Position numbers and translations under genes: made by a program. A DNA stretch of 64,000 nucleotides. Source: Alcaligenes aquatilis. GTDB taxonomy: Bacteria > Pseudomonadota > Gammaproteobacteria > Burkholderiales > Burkholderiaceae_B. The notes under the pieces are model-generated. The model was not told where the DNA came from and ran no database searches. It was given only the letters and a program-made list of their open reading frames with translations. Positions 23,914 through 30,430 of this stretch are shown piece by piece (position 1 is the stretch's first letter; every line of letters begins with the position of its first letter). Where the stretch lies: the NCBI RefSeq assembly GCF_003076515.1, contig NZ_CP022390.1, positions 2,356,001-2,420,000 of the forward strand. Reading direction: 5' to 3'.

Positions 23914-25247
23914 CCCCCGCCGGCAAGGCCCGTCGCCGATTCGTCGCCACGGCCACTACCCTGTTCCTGCTTCCTGTCATCCCGCGACTGGCGAACGCCA
24001 GCACCATCGTGGCCGTCCGTACCTGGCCGGCTGACGAATACACCCGCGTCACCCTGGAAATGGATAGCGAGCTCAAGGCCGAGCACTTCACGCTGGAAAA
24101 TCCCCATCGCATGGTGGTGGACATCCAGGGACTGACCATGAATCGCACTATCGAGGAGCTGGTTTCCAAAGTCCGTCCTAACGATCCCTATATTCGCTCG
24201 GTGCGTGTGGGCCAGAACCGGCCCGACGTCGTGCGTCTGGTGCTGGATCTGAAACAGCCCATCGCCCCCCAGATCTTTACACTCAAGCCTGTTGGTGAAT
24301 ACAAGTACCGTCTGGTTCTGGACTTGTACCCGCGCGTGGCCCAGGACCCGCTACTGGCCCTGCAAATTCAGGACGACGATGACCCCTTGGCTTCCGTGCT
24401 GGAAAGCCTGGCTCAAAATTCGCCTGACGCTCCAGTGCCGACTGTCCGAGGGCAATCCCTGCCACCCGCTGTGGCACGGACTCCCCCACCCGTCAGCACC
24501 CCGCCCCGCGCTCCTTCGCCGGCGGCAACACCTGGCACACCCAATCGTCCTTTGTTGATTGCACTGGACCCCGGTCATGGCGGAGAGGATCCCGGTGCCA
24601 TTGGTCCGGGTGGTACGCGCGAGAAAGATGTGGTGCTAAACATCGCTCGACGTTTGAAGCGCCTGATTGATGCGCAGCCCAATATGCGTACGTATTTGAC
24701 GCGGGATTCAGACTTTTTCGTCCCGCTGCAAGTACGTGTGCAAAAAGCTCGACGGGTAAAGGCGGATCTGTTTATCAGTATTCACGCAGATGCCTGGATC
24801 AAACCTAGCGCGCGTGGCTCGTCCGTGTACGCTTTGTCTCAAAACGGGGCAACCAGCTCGGCGGCCCGTTGGCTGGCAAAAAAAGAGAATGATGCCGACT
24901 TGATCGGCGGTCTGAACCTGGGTTCCCATAACCGGCAGGTCGCGCAAATTTTGCTGGACCTGTCTACGGCTGCCCAGATCAACGATTCGGTAAAAGTGGG
25001 CTCGCGTCTACTGGGCGAGATCGGCAAGATCAACCGCCTGCATAAACGTCGTGTCGAGCGCGCCGGTTTTGCTGTGTTGAAAGCCCCCGATATTCCTTCA
25101 ATTCTGATTGAAACGGCATTTATCAGTAATCCGGAAGAAGAACGTCTGCTGCGTAGTTCCTCGCATCAGGACAAGATCGCCCAGGCTATTTTGACGGGCA
25201 TTCGAGGCTATTTTGCCGAATTCCCGGCATTGGCCAGCCGCAGTTGA
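23877..25247 (+). CDS. amiC: Periplasmic N-acetylmuramoyl-L-alanine amidase AmiC with AMIN domain
   Basis: 456 residues. The N-terminus has a twin-arginine signal (ARRRFVATATTLFLLP...LANAS), consistent with Tat export of AmiA/AmiC. An AMIN domain covers about residues 45-150 (septal peptidoglycan targeting), then a Pro/Thr-rich linker (about 185-220), then Amidase_3. Zinc ligands and catalytic acid are visible: DPGHGGEDPGA, TREKDVV, SIHADAW and LIETAFISN. Cleaves the amide between MurNAc and the stem peptide for daughter-cell separation, normally activated by NlpD/EnvC. ATG has AAAGGA five bases upstream and overlaps tsaE. Confidence 0.96.
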   Translation: MDYDTRPQPAEVAPAGKARRRFVATATTLFLLPVIPRLANASTIVAVRTWPADEYTRVTLEMDSELKAEHFTLENPHRMVVDIQGLTMNRTIEELVSKVRPNDPYIRSVRVGQNRPDVVRLVLDLKQPIAPQIFTLKPVGEYKYRLVLDLYPRVAQDPLLALQIQDDDDPLASVLESLAQNSPDAPVPTVRGQSLPPAVARTPPPVSTPPRAPSPAATPGTPNRPLLIALDPGHGGEDPGAIGPGGTREKDVVLNIARRLKRLIDAQPNMRTYLTRDSDFFVPLQVRVQKARRVKADLFISIHADAWIKPSARGSSVYALSQNGATSSAARWLAKKENDADLIGGLNLGSHNRQVAQILLDLSTAAQINDSVKVGSRLLGEIGKINRLHKRRVERAGFAVLKAPDIPSILIETAFISNPEEERLLRSSSHQDKIAQAILTGIRGYFAEFPALASRS

Positions 25248-25264
25248 ACCGTAAAGCCCCACAC

Positions 25265-25298
25265 AAAAAGCGCACCAGATTTCTGCTGCGCTTTTTTT
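25265..25298 (+). terminator. Intrinsic terminator after amiC
   Basis: AAAAAGCGCA pairs with TGCGCTTTTT across a 12-base loop, with a seven-T run. Confidence 0.88.
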
Positions 25299-25686
25299 GA
25301 TCTTTGGCAATGCCCACCAGCGTAAACTCATTTCATCAGGCCCCGTAGTCGCTACACTAGCCGTATTTCTTTTTACGGCGCCGTTACGTGAAAACAGGTT
25401 AACCAGTACTCATTTCCAAGAGATAGTCGATGAGACAAACAAGGGCTCTATCCACTTTCTTTCGCCGTTCCAACAAAGCCTCATTGTGCCTGTACAGTCC
25501 GGCTCCTTACCCGTCTCCCCTGCCCTTCATCCCAGGCCAGGGTAGTCCGCGCGCCTGTCGCGAATCACCTCCCTGATCGGCTCACCCTGCAGCCATGTGC
25601 TGGTCGGCTCAACGACCAGGCACACACACACCCTGCCATGTCCTCCGAGCGTTCTTGCATTGGCTTCAAACGACAAGGAAAAAATC
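25299..25686. other. Upstream region of the PepSY/ApbE cluster
   Basis: About 390 bases without a convincing gene. An 82-codon frame at 25297 starts inside the terminator and resembles nothing known. No Fur-like box or clear promoter was found by eye, although this region must hold the promoter of the redox cluster. Confidence 0.55.
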
Positions 25687-26007
25687 ATGAAATCCCCCCC
25701 CTGCCTGCTTATTGTGTACCTATGCCTGTCCCTGATAGCCGGGCCAGCCCGTGCTGATGACGACTGCGATGTCCCAGTACAGCAATGGCAAAGCCGGGAT
25801 GCGGCCCTGGAGCATGCCGCTCGTCTGGGCTGGCAGGTGCAACGCCTGAAAATTGACGACGGCTGCTATGAAATTCGCGGCCGGGATGCTCAAGGCCGTT
25901 CGTTCAAAGCCAAGCTTGACCCGCAAACGCTACGCATCGTGAAAATGAAAGTGCGCGAGGGTCACGACAAGCCGGAGCGCGAACGTGAGCGCGAAAGGAA
26001 TCACTGA
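25687..26007 (+). CDS. Small periplasmic PepSY-domain protein
   Basis: 106 residues from ATG 25687 (AAGGAA just upstream); longer frames add an implausible head. Signal peptide MKSPPCLLIVYLCLSLIAGPARA|DD. The mature part is a single PepSY_2-like domain: DAALEHAARLGWQVQRLKIDDGCYEIRGRDAQGRSFKAKLDPQTLRIVKM (given in two pieces: DAALEHAARLGWQVQRLK and YEIRGRDAQGRSFKAKLDP). Two cysteines (CDVP and DGCYE) could form a disulfide. The tail is very basic and acidic (RERERER). First gene of the cluster, 75 bases before the DUF2271 gene. PepSY domains often accompany membrane redox proteins; no enzyme activity is expected. Confidence 0.8.
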   Translation: MKSPPCLLIVYLCLSLIAGPARADDDCDVPVQQWQSRDAALEHAARLGWQVQRLKIDDGCYEIRGRDAQGRSFKAKLDPQTLRIVKMKVREGHDKPERERERERNH

Positions 26008-26082
26008 AGCCTGCACTTGGCCGCCGTCCTTCCTGCCCTCAACCCTGAAGTTGTTTCCCTTTGATCACACCGGAGAACCATC

Positions 26083-26562
26083 ATGTCCAAGCGTTTTCTT
26101 CTCACCACCCTGGCTGCAGCCTGTACCGTGGCCCTGCCCTCTTTAGCGCAGGGCCGTACCGTGGCACTTTCCACTACCCTCAAAGACTACGGCGGTGACG
26201 GGGCCTATTTGGCCGTCTACCTGACCGATGCCCAGGGCGCGTATGTACGCACACTGTGGGTCGCCGGCGGCAAAGCCAAATACTACAAGCATCTGGCAGA
26301 CTGGAATCGCTTGTCCGCCAGCGATGGCCAACGCCTGCAAGGAGTAACCGGCGCCAGCGTCGGTGCCGGGCGCACTCTGGAGGTGACAGCAGAACTGGAG
26401 GATGCCCTGATTGACGCCGGCTACGAGCTCCGTGTCGATGCCGCCGCCGAAGACATGCGGGATAGCCCATCGGAAATCCGTGTTCCCCTGACTGCCGCCA
26501 ACGCGGGCTCGCCACAGACAGGCAAACAATATATTCAATCCCTGACCTATCAGTTGCAGTAA
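26083..26562 (+). CDS. Exported DUF2271 protein with flavinylation-type TGAS motif
   Basis: 159 residues with a Sec signal peptide (MSKRFLLTTLAAACTVALPSLAQG). The domain matches the DUF2271 pattern: TLKDYGGDGAYLAVYLTD, YVRTLWVAGGKAKYYKHLADW, then LQGVTGASVGAGRTL. The TGAS at residues 89-92 has the [S/T]GA[S/T] form used by ApbE to attach FMN through a phosphoester; Ser92 would be the acceptor. With apbE two genes downstream, the protein is best read as a periplasmic FMN-carrying electron acceptor of the membrane reductase next to it. The biochemical role is inferred, not established for this protein. Confidence 0.8.
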   Translation: MSKRFLLTTLAAACTVALPSLAQGRTVALSTTLKDYGGDGAYLAVYLTDAQGAYVRTLWVAGGKAKYYKHLADWNRLSASDGQRLQGVTGASVGAGRTLEVTAELEDALIDAGYELRVDAAAEDMRDSPSEIRVPLTAANAGSPQTGKQYIQSLTYQLQ

Positions 26563-26571
26563 GGAACCTAC

Positions 26572-28755
26572 ATGATCTGGCGATTCGTCCATCGATGGCT
26601 GGGACTGGTAGCAGGCACCCTCGCGCTGGTACTGGCCATCACAGGCACGATGTTGGCACTTGAGCCCTTGCGCAACGCCCTGCAGGCCGCTCCCACCGAG
26701 TCCGACCTGCCGCTTGCCACACTGGTGGAGCGCGTAAAGAGCACTGTCCCTGGCGCAGAAGAAATTCGTCATCTGCCATCAGGCATCTTCGTGGTCTATG
26801 CGTTTGAGAACGGACAAGCCCGGGCCATACGTGTGGACCCGGCAGACGGCAAAATCCTGGGAGACTACCAGGCCTCCCTGCTGCCGCGTTGGGTCAAAAA
26901 CCTGCATCGCACTTTCTTGATGGACGACCCAGGACGCATTACAGCAGCCATGGTTGCTCTGGCCATGTTGACCCTGTCTGTGTCCGGACTGGTGTTGCTG
27001 CTGCGTCGAATGGGTGGCTGGCGGGGACTTACCGGGCCCGTGCGTGGCACCCTCCCCCAACGCCTGCATGTACTGAGCGGCAGGGTCATTTTATTGATCC
27101 TGGCCCTGTCCTCAGCCACGGCCCTTTACATGAGCGCCAGCACGTTCGAGCTGATCACGCTAAGTCCGAGCACGGAGCCCGAAGTGAGCTCGCAAGCCAC
27201 CGGACAGCCGCCGCTTCCACCGGGCCAGATCGACCTGTTGCAGACTTTACGTGTGCAGGATCTGCAACGGCTCAATCTACCAACACATGAGGACCCTCAA
27301 GACACTTGGCGCGTTCTCACTGTTCAGGGCCAAGGCTGGGCGGACCAGTACCAAGGTCAGACCTTGGCCTGGGAGCCGTCGACCCTGGCACAACGCCTCT
27401 ACGACTGGATCTTGCTCTTGCATACCGGAGATGGAGCCTGGCTGTGGGCCATTTTTCTTGGCCTATCGGCAGCGTGCATACCCTTGTTCTGGTACACAGG
27501 TATCCTAATGTGGTGGCAAGCGCGCCGCAGCCGTCCCACGCTTAAAGGCAATAGCCCACTGGCCCAGGCCGACAGTCTGATTTTTGTCGCCAGTGAGGGC
27601 GGCAGTACCTGGGGGTTTGCGCAAGCGCTGCACGACGCACTCAAAGCCATGGGTCGTCAGGTACATACCACCACGCTGGAGAACTGGCGAGTACCACCAA
27701 CGGCCCGCCAGGTATATATCCTGGCCGCCACTTACGGTGAAGGCCAGCCGCCCGCCCACGCACAAAAAGCACTCAAACAGATCGCCAGCCAGCCGCCCAC
27801 TGATGCTCAAGTCGCGGTTTTAGGGTTTGGGGATAGACAGTTTCCTGACTTTTGCGGATTTGCCAACACGCTCGAGCACGCCTTGCGGGAGCGGGGATGG
27901 AAACCTTTGCTGGCGCTAGAGCGTATTCATCAGCAATCTCCCCAGGAGTTTGCTCGCTGGGGACGAAGCCTTTCTGACGCGCTGGGGCAAGCTGTGCCGC
28001 TTGCCTACCAGCCTCGTTTGCCGCGCATGGCAACCCTGACACTGCTGTCACGCCAGGACTTTCCCGGTGCTACGGGTCAGCCCGCCGTCATCCTGCGCTT
28101 TGCGCTGCCCGACCAGCCAGTGCCCCGCTTCGCAGCCGGAGACCTGCTGGGCGTTCTTCCTCCCGGCGAACAGTCAGTCCCACGCTACTACTCACTGGCC
28201 TCAGGCAAACAGGATGGGTTCGTGGAAATCTGTGTGCGATACACAAGCGGTGGTGTTTGCTCTCCGTATTTGCATCGCCTGCAGATCGGAGATCAGATTC
28301 AAGCCTTCATCCGGCCCAACCCCGGCTTCACGCTGACCGGCTCCCGAAGCCCGGTGGTGTTGATTGGCGCGGGCACCGGGGTGGCTCCGTTGGCCGGTTT
28401 CATTCGCGACAATAGGCGACATCGTCCCATGTACCTGTATTACGGTACTCGTGATTCCAAACAGGATTATTATTTTGAAAAGGAGCTCAAAGACTGGCAG
28501 ACCCAGGGCCATCTACACCAATTGCACACAAGCTTCTCCCGAATGCCTGATGGTGGCGGTTATGTACAGAACGCCGTACAGCGTGACGCCCAACAGATCC
28601 GCACCCTTCTGGAAAAAGGCGCGCTTGTGCGTGTTTGTGGCAGCCGCCCCATGGCTCAGGCAATCAGACAAGAACTGGACACTATTCTGATGGATATGGG
28701 CAAAAACCTGGCCTGGCTCAAGGAGAACGGGCGCTATGCCGAAGACCTCTTCTGA
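26572..28755 (+). CDS. PepSY_TM / flavodoxin / FAD-NAD(P)H flavoreductase fusion
   Basis: 727 residues. N-terminal part (1-330) is a PepSY-associated membrane domain with about four helices. Histidines in FVHRWLG, KNLHRTF, QRLHVLSG and LLHTGDGAW lie at helix ends and could bind heme. From about residue 335 comes a flavodoxin-like FMN domain (LIFVASEGGSTWGFAQAL, LAATYGEGQPP), then from about 485 a cytochrome P450 reductase-type FAD/NAD(P) module: RYYSLASG near 537, GGVCSPYL, GAGTGVAPLAGFIRD near 599, and the C-terminal RYAEDLF. Moves electrons from cytoplasmic NAD(P)H into or across the inner membrane. Starts nine bases after the DUF2271 gene and overlaps apbE. Confidence 0.88.
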   Translation: MIWRFVHRWLGLVAGTLALVLAITGTMLALEPLRNALQAAPTESDLPLATLVERVKSTVPGAEEIRHLPSGIFVVYAFENGQARAIRVDPADGKILGDYQASLLPRWVKNLHRTFLMDDPGRITAAMVALAMLTLSVSGLVLLLRRMGGWRGLTGPVRGTLPQRLHVLSGRVILLILALSSATALYMSASTFELITLSPSTEPEVSSQATGQPPLPPGQIDLLQTLRVQDLQRLNLPTHEDPQDTWRVLTVQGQGWADQYQGQTLAWEPSTLAQRLYDWILLLHTGDGAWLWAIFLGLSAACIPLFWYTGILMWWQARRSRPTLKGNSPLAQADSLIFVASEGGSTWGFAQALHDALKAMGRQVHTTTLENWRVPPTARQVYILAATYGEGQPPAHAQKALKQIASQPPTDAQVAVLGFGDRQFPDFCGFANTLEHALRERGWKPLLALERIHQQSPQEFARWGRSLSDALGQAVPLAYQPRLPRMATLTLLSRQDFPGATGQPAVILRFALPDQPVPRFAAGDLLGVLPPGEQSVPRYYSLASGKQDGFVEICVRYTSGGVCSPYLHRLQIGDQIQAFIRPNPGFTLTGSRSPVVLIGAGTGVAPLAGFIRDNRRHRPMYLYYGTRDSKQDYYFEKELKDWQTQGHLHQLHTSFSRMPDGGGYVQNAVQRDAQQIRTLLEKGALVRVCGSRPMAQAIRQELDTILMDMGKNLAWLKENGRYAEDLF

Positions 28756-29710
28756 CGTTCGACGCCTGACACTGAACGGCCCAACCATGGGCACGCGCTG
28801 GTCCGCCCTTGTGGAAACGACCGATGCCGTGGAGGTAGCAGACCTGCAACAAGCGCTGGCAGAGGCCGTTCACCAAGTGGATCGGCAAATGTCCCCGTGG
28901 CTGCCCGACAGCGAGCTAAATCGGCTCAACCGGACCCCTCCCGGTACATGGCTGGACCTGCCCCCAGAAATACTTGAGGTGTTAGCCTGTGCCCTGGAGA
29001 TCAATCGTCGCAGCCAGGGCGCTTTTGACCCTGGCCTGGGGGACCTGGTAGATGCCTGGGGTTTTGGCCCCGCCCGACATGAGCCCGATGCTGCCGCCAT
29101 CCGTCGTGCCGCTCAAGCAGGTTCTACCCCCGCTTACGAAACACTGGAACTGGATATGGCCGCCGGCCGCGCCATCAAACACGCTCCCCTACAGCTAGAC
29201 CTGTGCGGGATCGCCAAAGGCTATGCGGTAGACCGTATGGCCCTGGTGCTGCGTCAGCACGGCCTTGATCACGCCTTGCTGGCCCTGGACGGAGAACTTC
29301 GCGCCCTGAACAGCCAGTGTCATGGCCAGCCTTGGGCGGTAGCGGTCGAATACCCCCAGGATGGACGGCGCTCCACTCACAGCGTGGTTGAACTGGATAA
29401 TCTGTCCATCGCCACCTCGGGCGATTATCGGCGCTTTTTACAGCTCGGTGATATCCGAGTCGCACACACCATGGATAGCAGGCATCGCGCACCTGTGCGC
29501 AACGATATCGCGTCCGTAACTGTTCTGGCGCCAGACTGCATGCGGGCCGATGCCTGGGCCACCGCCTTGCTGGTCAGCGGCAGCGATGGCATGGCCTTGG
29601 CACAACGCATGGGCATAGAAGCGCTTTGGCTACTGCGTCGTGACAATCGTTTGACCACCGTTGGCCTGGGGCGGTTTAGCGAAGCGCCAGCATCGCCAGC
29701 AAAGGCATGA
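28736..29710 (+). CDS. apbE: FAD:protein FMN transferase (ApbE) lacking a signal peptide
   Basis: 324 residues. Seen are NGPTMGTRWSALVE (MGT motif at 18-20), HQVDRQMSPWLPDSELNRLN, FDPGLGDLVDAWGFG, DLCGIAKGYAVDRM, LALDGELRALN, HTMDSRHRAPVRNDIASVTVLA and the metal-binding ADAWATALLVSG. This enzyme transfers FMN from FAD to a Ser/Thr of partner proteins. It starts 20 bases inside the reductase gene. Unlike the usual periplasmic lipoprotein ApbE there is no signal sequence or lipobox, and no upstream in-frame start could add one, so it looks cytoplasmic. The likely partner is the DUF2271 protein. Confidence 0.9.
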   Translation: MPKTSSDVRRLTLNGPTMGTRWSALVETTDAVEVADLQQALAEAVHQVDRQMSPWLPDSELNRLNRTPPGTWLDLPPEILEVLACALEINRRSQGAFDPGLGDLVDAWGFGPARHEPDAAAIRRAAQAGSTPAYETLELDMAAGRAIKHAPLQLDLCGIAKGYAVDRMALVLRQHGLDHALLALDGELRALNSQCHGQPWAVAVEYPQDGRRSTHSVVELDNLSIATSGDYRRFLQLGDIRVAHTMDSRHRAPVRNDIASVTVLAPDCMRADAWATALLVSGSDGMALAQRMGIEALWLLRRDNRLTTVGLGRFSEAPASPAKA

Positions 29711-29712
29711 TG

Positions 29713-29741
29713 AAAAACGGGACGCCTTAGCGTCCCGTTTT
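29713..29741. terminator. Bidirectional terminator between apbE and dedA
   Basis: AAAACGGGACGC and GCGTCCCGTTTT pair perfectly over a four-base loop, between two convergent genes. Confidence 0.9.
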
Positions 29742-29779
29742 CGCACGGCCCAGTCGTATCAGGCAGCGGACTCGACAGC

Positions 29780-30430
29780 CTATAAAGCGGCATCACCCTT
29801 GCTCTTGCGTTTGAAGATCTTCCACAAGGCCCCGGCCACAACAGGCACCGCGGCAGCCGCAATACCAATCAGCACGATAGTATTCAAATGCGCCTTGATG
29901 AAAGGCACGTTACCAAAGAAGTAGCCCAGCGTAATCAAGCTGCAAATCCATAAAACCGCGCCTGTCATGTTGTACATCTGAAAGCGCCAGGCATTCATGT
30001 GCCCCACTCCCGCCACAAAAGGCGCGAAGGTACGGAACAGAGGCAGGAAGCGGGAAATGACGATGGTCTTGCCACCATGCTTTTCATAGAAAGCATGGGT
30101 TTTGACCAGCGCACGGCGATCCAGGAATCGGGATTCCTGGGTAAAGACTTTCGGGCCTATATACCGCCCCACGTGATAGTTCACGGTATTGCCCAGCACC
30201 GCCGCCACGATCAGCAGGCCACCGAGCATCACCGGGTCCAGCATGCCCGAAGCGCCAAAGGCTCCAGCAATAAACAGCAAGGAATCGCCCGGCAGGAAAG
30301 GCAGAACCACAAGCCCGGTCTCGCCAAATATAATCAAGAACAGAACAAGATAAATCCAGGCCCCATACTGCTCGACCCACACCCCCAGGTATTGGTCAAT
30401 ATGAAGGATCATGCTGAGTAAATCGGGCAT
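29780..30430 (-). CDS. DedA-family membrane protein
   Basis: 216 residues from ATG 30430, the family size; the longer frame runs back through the mutL 5' region and is spurious. Hallmarks: E-x(2)-LVVLPFLPGDSLLF (FGETGLVVLPFLPGD), NTVNYHVGRYIG, and the signature KHGGKTIVISRFLPLFRTFAPFVAGVGHM with the conserved arginines and F-x-R-x-x-P pattern. DedA proteins are inner-membrane undecaprenyl-phosphate or phospholipid transport-related proteins. Convergent with apbE and divergent from mutL. Confidence 0.92.
   Translation of the reverse strand: MPDLLSMILHIDQYLGVWVEQYGAWIYLVLFLIIFGETGLVVLPFLPGDSLLFIAGAFGASGMLDPVMLGGLLIVAAVLGNTVNYHVGRYIGPKVFTQESRFLDRRALVKTHAFYEKHGGKTIVISRFLPLFRTFAPFVAGVGHMNAWRFQMYNMTGAVLWICSLITLGYFFGNVPFIKAHLNTIVLIGIAAAAVPVVAGALWKIFKRKSKGDAAL

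Follow-up and report, generated by a model that had tools for sequence, protein, structure and literature searches.

We analysed a window of 64,000 nucleotides from Alcaligenes aquatilis (contig NZ_CP022390.1, positions 2,356,001 to 2,420,000 of the forward strand) and describe here a four-gene operon within it. The genes encode, in order, a small exported PepSY_2 protein, an exported DUF2271 protein, a fusion of a PepSY_TM membrane part with a flavodoxin and a ferredoxin-NADP reductase (FNR) module, and the flavin transferase ApbE. The operon is conserved and represents a distinct sub-type within a published class of electron exporters, set apart from the systems described in the main text of PMC8238504. 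Its marks are a FoxB-like membrane part with four invariant histidines fused to a complete diflavin module, PepSY_2 at the head, little sign of Fur control, and an ApbE without an export leader. The best explanation overall, and one that we consider somewhat probable, is that the operon encodes a transmembrane electron exporter fed by reduced nicotinamide adenine dinucleotide phosphate (NADPH), with a periplasmic carrier that would be flavinylated in the cytoplasm before export through the general secretory (Sec) pathway.

In such a system, the leaderless ApbE would act in the cytoplasm, with its supply of flavin adenine dinucleotide (FAD), and place flavin mononucleotide (FMN) on Ser92 of the DUF2271 precursor; the flavinylated, still unfolded precursor would then be exported through Sec. 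The fusion protein would pass hydride from NADPH to FAD and on to the flavodoxin FMN. Electron transfer could then involve a bis-histidine heme on the cytoplasmic side (H7/H166), a second on the periplasmic side (H112/H284), and finally the FMN of DUF2271 in the periplasm. Either the FMN-bearing DUF2271 protein or the heme protein itself would reduce an acceptor in the periplasm, for which a metal ion or complex (Fe or Cu) is the likeliest candidate, and PepSY_2 is probably an accessory periplasmic protein. A similar electron route had been put forward in the original prediction; it fits the anatomy of the proteins and is in essence the published PepSY-like model. The prediction had also relied on ApbE acting on extracytoplasmic proteins, and since the enzyme is leaderless, action outside the cytoplasm cannot be assumed.

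Conservation and distribution

A DUF2271 match is present in 112 of 268 genomes of the window's bacterial family (108 over the cut-off), with scores that form a high and a low group; the window belongs to the latter. Among 28 other low-group loci, from 26 genomes of the family, 25 have the full set of PepSY_2, DUF2271, the fusion and ApbE, arranged as in the window. The other three are L046 (without PepSY_2 and ApbE), L050 (without PepSY_2 and the fusion) and L056, which reaches a contig end (L and G numbers are our labels for loci and genomes). A wider scan of genomes with a DUF2271 alignment gave at least 571 relatives, and 76 of the best 80 have all four genes in the same order on one strand. 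Three of the other four (L084, L116 and L143) reach a contig end after the start of the fusion, and L091 lacks the fusion and ApbE in the DNA examined. Gene order kept in both samples at these rates is far beyond chance. The original prediction had named co-occurrence of the four families as its own test in advance, and the co-occurrence found is strong. Eight genomes were sampled twice (L040/L097, L042/L129, L043/L145, L044/L138, L051/L113, L059/L122, L060/L114 and L063/L134), so the counts over 108 loci and 115 rows given below hold eight repeats.

The hosts are mostly Burkholderiales (Comamonas, Acidovorax, Hydrogenophaga, Castellaniella, Pusillimonas, Rhodoferax and Polaromonas) together with Thiobacillus and a few genomes with other labels, and many genomes with four-gene loci are metagenome bins. 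In a sample of the phylum, DUF2271 occurs in 70 of 398 genomes. Thirteen of the 67 loci in that sample are of this type by profile (L198-L209 and L211), eight of them with all four genes.

Fusion protein

Pfam finds PepSY_TM (PF03929; residues 6-316, E 6.2e-37), Flavodoxin_1 (337-449), FAD_binding_6 (506-577) and NAD_binding_1 (597-699) along the fusion protein, in that order. The heme domain spans about residues 1-325, the flavodoxin about 335-450 and the FAD/NADP(H)-binding FNR module about 485-727. Based on domain and fold searches, the diflavin part is P450-reductase-like, comprising the flavodoxin and the FNR module. Residues S656-R657 form what we take to be a 2'-phosphate signature, which would presumably confer a preference for NADPH.

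Hits to the diflavin part filled the fold search of the fusion, so a sequence profile was used to test the membrane part. Its sole natural match in the PDB is FoxB of Pseudomonas aeruginosa (7abw, E 2e-8), the other matches being designed proteins. FoxB is a PepSY_TM siderophore reductase with two histidines per membrane face as heme ligands; four histidines in the membrane part of the fusion, invariant in 23 of 23 sequences, lie at matching places. From these positions we infer that two bis-histidine heme sites are occupied, with H7 paired with H166 and H112 with H284. FoxB is little more than its PepSY/TM region and has no flavin domains, whereas the fusion adds them. Diflavin reductases such as P450 reductase and CysJ likewise combine a flavodoxin with an FNR module of the P450-reductase fold. 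In contrast to these enzymes, which feed a P450 or a sulfite reductase, electrons here would enter the heme domain of the same chain. A first scan of genome contigs with the fusion alone as query returned no match. The window's own genome encodes a second PepSY_TM protein of 553 aa, far from the operon (L065, 2567-4228; C1, about 516067-517728), in which Pfam finds no flavin domain.

DUF2271, the predicted flavin carrier

The N-terminus of the DUF2271 protein is a Sec-type leader, MSKRFLLTTLAAACTVALPSLAQG, which begins MSKRFLL and has no twin arginine. Leader hydrophobicity was found in 106 of 106 DUF2271 proteins measured, and a twin-arginine-like pattern in 2 of 106. Export of the folded protein by the twin-arginine translocation (Tat) pathway was rejected on these two grounds, the rarity of the pattern and its absence from the window's leader.

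The motif [ST]GA[ST] occurs in 29 of 29 DUF2271 proteins, compared with 0 of 27 ApbEs, 1 of 27 PepSY_2 proteins and 6 of 28 fusions, in which its position varies. G90-A91-S92 are invariant in 24 of 24 DUF2271 sequences, and Ser92 of the precursor is the predicted FMN acceptor. The window's motif reads QGVTGAS; in a large share of relatives it is DGVTGAS, which matches the complete D-x-x-[ST]-G-A-[ST] pattern (PMC12052999). In another bacterium (the Amantichitinum pair), ApbE flavinylates its DUF2271 partner at [ST]GA[ST] (PMC8238504). Foldseek returned no match for DUF2271 at E <= 0.001, so no fold relative is claimed.

ApbE lacks an export leader

The ApbE of the window starts MPKTSSDVRRLTLNGPTMGT. 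Reading the sequence places AAGGAG 10 nt 5' of the ATG, and an in-frame stop 15 codons 5' of the ATG leaves no room for a signal peptide. The triad Ser228-His244-Asp272 is invariant in 19 of 19 sequences, each residue lying 13 below its counterpart in the catalytic triad of Vibrio cholerae ApbE (Ser241, His257 and Asp285; PMC12052999).

Leaders were scored with a home-made any-start hydropathy rule at a threshold of 1.5, which is reached in 5 of 115 rows of the four-gene-type ApbE. All controls reach it, namely 17 of 17 other ApbEs (16 loci from 15 of the 26 family genomes, plus the second ApbE of the window's genome) and 4 of 4 ApbE-DUF2271 fusions; 16 of the 17 also show a twin-arginine-like pattern. 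Typical exported ApbEs carry an N-terminal export or lipoprotein signal, and by this rule nearly every row of the four-gene type does not. Four of the five rows at or above the threshold (L039, L041, L040 and L097, the last two repeats of one genome) have upstream starts in a stretch that overlaps the fusion gene, and the value of L057 comes, in our own reading, from the enzyme domain itself. L058 stays below the threshold; its open frame opens with a hydrophobic stretch that lies in part 5' of any possible start.

A mis-called start that hides a leader was rejected for the window, given the upstream stop, and for most relatives, since 68 of 96 have an in-frame stop at most 30 aa before GxxMGT. 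Six ApbEs found by BLAST have no GxxMGT and were left out of these 96; five have MAT for MGT and no leader by eye, and L118 has no N-terminus.

The picture seems less clear-cut for other DUF2271-linked ApbEs, of which 6 of 34 reach 1.5 (4 of the 34 have no start codon in range and were counted as below) and one, L162, has a lipoprotein-type leader. The other 28 of these 34 stand-alone ApbEs (from L146-L193 and L229-L231) are under the threshold and likewise show no clear leader, and many start with a short [RV][VI]LIP motif. The ApbE-DUF2271 fusions, of about 500 aa (L194, L195, L197 and L212), carry leaders, with enzyme and target exported as one chain. In an unrooted tree of 96 ApbEs, drawn with an arbitrary root, the four-gene type forms a single group (100/99) that lies next to the other DUF2271-linked ApbEs and away from the enzymes with leaders. 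The tree holds 41 four-gene ApbEs (picked at random, with some divergent members added by choice and domains below 200 aa removed) and each of the 55 rows in the other groups.

ApbE complement and candidate targets

The leaderless enzyme is the single ApbE in 7 of the 26 family genomes (G062, G119, G178, G187, G212, G252 and G267). Completeness is 100% for G062 (a single contig), G187 and G267, 99% for G119 and 91-96% for the other three; four of the seven are thus at least 99% complete. The target families searched were FMN_bind and NqrB/RnfD, and neither was found in any of the seven. As the only ApbE in these genomes has no export signal and the only substrate family found is exported, cytoplasmic flavinylation before export would be the simplest resolution. 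ApbE recognises a seven-residue motif and is active in the cytosol if truncated forms of both partners are produced there (PMC12052999).

In three further genomes (G122, G126 and G159) the second full-length ApbE likewise shows no clear leader, and the second ApbE of G224 was left out of the leader classification. The window's own genome encodes a second ApbE with a Tat-type leader (L064; C1, about 3277550-3278560) beside an apparent nos cluster. The only FMN_bind match of that genome lies about 8 kb from this enzyme, in the same cluster.

Weighing cytoplasmic flavinylation against other explanations

Several points weigh against loading of the DUF2271 precursor before export. The explanation draws on sequence, and no precedent for an FMN-bearing precursor passing Sec was found in the literature searched. 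Nor did we find a statement of cytoplasmic loading before export in that literature, including PMC8238504, PMC11334425 and PMC12052999, supplements aside. The cytosolic form of one Salmonella ApbE failed to replace the periplasmic one (PMC12052999), and a leader-bearing second ApbE, which could do the job, is present in 15 of the 26 family genomes. The leader test is our own rule and not SignalP, and the NADPH preference is presumed from S656-R657. The first Asp of the motif is Gln in the window, although replacement of this Asp by Ala had only a minor effect, and serine is a poorer FMN acceptor than threonine (review, PMC12052999). Some loci are incomplete: in L046, L091, L205 and L206 no ApbE match lies beside DUF2271, and L200, L204 and L208 have no PepSY_2 match. 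In L050, from the single-ApbE genome G119, DUF2271 is directly followed by ApbE with no fusion match; the putative substrate and enzyme stay paired there although the reductase is missing.

The main alternative, which we consider unlikely, is an ordinary PepSY-like assimilatory ferric reductase whose carrier receives its flavin in the periplasm, either from a different ApbE that is exported or from this one through some other route. This is the published model, and related clusters in Caulobacter and Shewanella have an iron link and Fur control (PMC8238504). For instance, Caulobacter CCNA_03155-03159 is iron- and Fur-responsive, and insertions in it lower fitness in ethylenediaminetetraacetic acid (EDTA). 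The leader-bearing second ApbEs, including that of the window's own genome, would suit such a model, but the seven single-ApbE genomes have none. A Pfam scan of 119 of 138 upstream neighbours (67 downstream neighbours were left out) gave one VIT1 and one Nramp match, which favour it, and also eight Ferric_reduct, seven b561 and five response-regulator matches.

Fur sites were scored as a simple match count (of 19) to a Fur-box consensus, with mononucleotide shuffles for comparison. In 109 upstream regions the matches are near the shuffles, with at least 12 in 8 regions (7.2 expected) and exactly 11 in 31 (21.4 expected), which argues against the ferric reductase. Over whole four-gene loci, a scan that ignores the distance to the operon, at least 14 of 19 matches occur in 5 of 108 (1 of 108 shuffled), which argues for it. 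At least 15 occur in 1 of 108, compared with 7 of 54 other DUF2271 loci of the phylum (where at least 14 occur in 21 of 54, and in 6 shuffled), though the short loci of the other sub-family reach this count in only 1 of 30 cases. Overall, the Fur-box signal of the four-gene sub-type appears weak. Ferric iron, offered in the original prediction as one acceptor, gains no special support from this signal, and no TonB receptor is present among the 25 of 55 neighbour families listed. Iron may be involved, and so may copper or envelope redox stress.

A further explanation, which we regard as improbable, has copper or an oxidised envelope protein in place of iron as the acceptor, and the operon as a member of a two-component envelope-stress regulon in part of the lineage. 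Four BLAST clusters of neighbours, each annotated through one representative, are consistent with this: of the 108 loci, 26 have an OmpR-type response regulator nearby, in every case on the opposite strand, 19 a histidine kinase, 17 a ferric-reductase-like FAD protein and 8 a cytochrome b561. The copper link of a Bordetella PepSY_TM protein (PMC13038864) also fits. However, function varies between PepSY_TM sub-families according to the same source, no such neighbour was seen among the window's open reading frames (ORFs) judged by eye, and neither of the two regulators tested passes a curated NCBIfam cut-off among the families listed. In L068, L078, L079, L119 and others, a divergent OmpR-type two-component system, a ferric-reductase-like FAD protein or cytochrome b561 adjoins the operon.

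It is equally doubtful that the leaderless ApbE flavinylates some cytoplasmic protein and that DUF2271 is not its substrate, for although Klebsiella has a cytoplasmic ApbE with a cytoplasmic target (PMC12052999), the motif is kept in every DUF2271 protein, the seven single-ApbE genomes lack the other target families searched, L050 retains the DUF2271-ApbE adjacency without the fusion, and a DUF2271 protein is a proven ApbE substrate elsewhere (PMC8238504).

We retain loading of FMN in the cytoplasm, followed by Sec export, as the somewhat more probable explanation for the operon of the window. Whether it extends to the whole ApbE clade of four-gene operons, and perhaps to most stand-alone ApbEs of other Pseudomonadota DUF2271 operons, seems to us evenly balanced.

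Comparison with known systems

PepSY-like/DUF2271/ApbE clusters, with a proposed role in iron reduction, have been published (Méheust 2021, PMC8238504). Thus, the operon is not the undescribed system that the original prediction had taken it for. Like the PepSY-like flavinylation systems of that study, it clusters a PepSY_TM protein, a DUF2271 carrier with [ST]GA[ST] and a signal peptide, and ApbE; 1077 of the PepSY-like genes reported there also have an NAD-binding domain, as does the fusion. Unlike those systems, which often include DUF4198, it has PepSY_2 first, the flavodoxin within the fusion, a leaderless ApbE and little Fur-box signal. No DUF4198 was found between the four genes or among the neighbour families listed.

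The Caulobacter cluster shares the core families (a transporter/PepSY-family protein, DUF2271, DUF4198, ApbE and a sulfite-reductase-type flavoprotein). In contrast to the operon described here, it has five genes, its flavoprotein is apart from the PepSY-family membrane protein, and it includes the DUF4198 gene. The Klebsiella ApbE, which is linked to a soluble fumarate reductase, is also leaderless, and its target stays in the cytoplasm (PMC12052999), whereas the only conserved target here is exported.

Operon layout and genomic site

The ORF list and a Pfam scan confirm the four genes on one strand (Table 1), and the same-strand cluster with an overlapping last pair, as originally predicted, is present at the expected coordinates. 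PepSY_2 and DUF2271 are separated by 75 nt, DUF2271 and the fusion by 9 nt, and the fusion and ApbE genes overlap by 20 nt. The inverted repeat that follows may mark the transcript end; it is not in the terminator scan's list, and the promoter scan found none. In the PepSY_2 precursor, C27 and C60 are conserved in 27 of 27 sequences and could form a disulfide. Its relatives show signal-peptide-like hydrophobicity in 105 of 105 measured, 21 with a twin-arginine-like pattern.

Table 1. Features of the operon, in positions of the window
Feature	Position	Strand	Evidence
PepSY_2 (PF13670), small exported protein, 106 aa	25687-26007	+	Pfam 7.9e-26
DUF2271 protein, 159 aa, Sec-type leader, V-T-G-A-S motif	26083-26562	+	Pfam 9.1e-34
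PepSY_TM/flavodoxin/FNR fusion, 727 aa	26572-28755	+	Pfam
ApbE FAD:protein FMN transferase, 324 aa, leaderless	28736-29710	+	Pfam 1e-75
12-bp perfect inverted repeat, 4-nt loop, just 3' of apbE	29714-29741		Read from sequence

In the window, by our own reading of the ORF list, the cassette lies between amiC and dedA/mutL (25240-29780). The same amiC-dedA site holds it in G054 and G057. In six congeners without DUF2271 (G055, G056 and G058-G061), and in G062, amiC is followed by dedA after 0.1-0.6 kb; G062 has a divergent copy of the operon elsewhere, with a fusion 43% identical. This patchy presence suggests that the cassette was gained or lost within the genus.

Implications

The supply of FAD to periplasmic ApbE has been called obscure in a 2025 review (PMC12052999). 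If the explanation favoured here is true, a cytoplasmic flavin transferase sidesteps this problem, and a precursor already loaded with its cofactor can use Sec. The location of the flavin transferase is the point of specialist interest in this sub-type. The compactness of the operon, with one protein leading from NADPH to the periplasmic heme and one small flavinylated carrier, makes it well suited to studies of transmembrane electron export and to the search for the acceptor of DUF2271 proteins.

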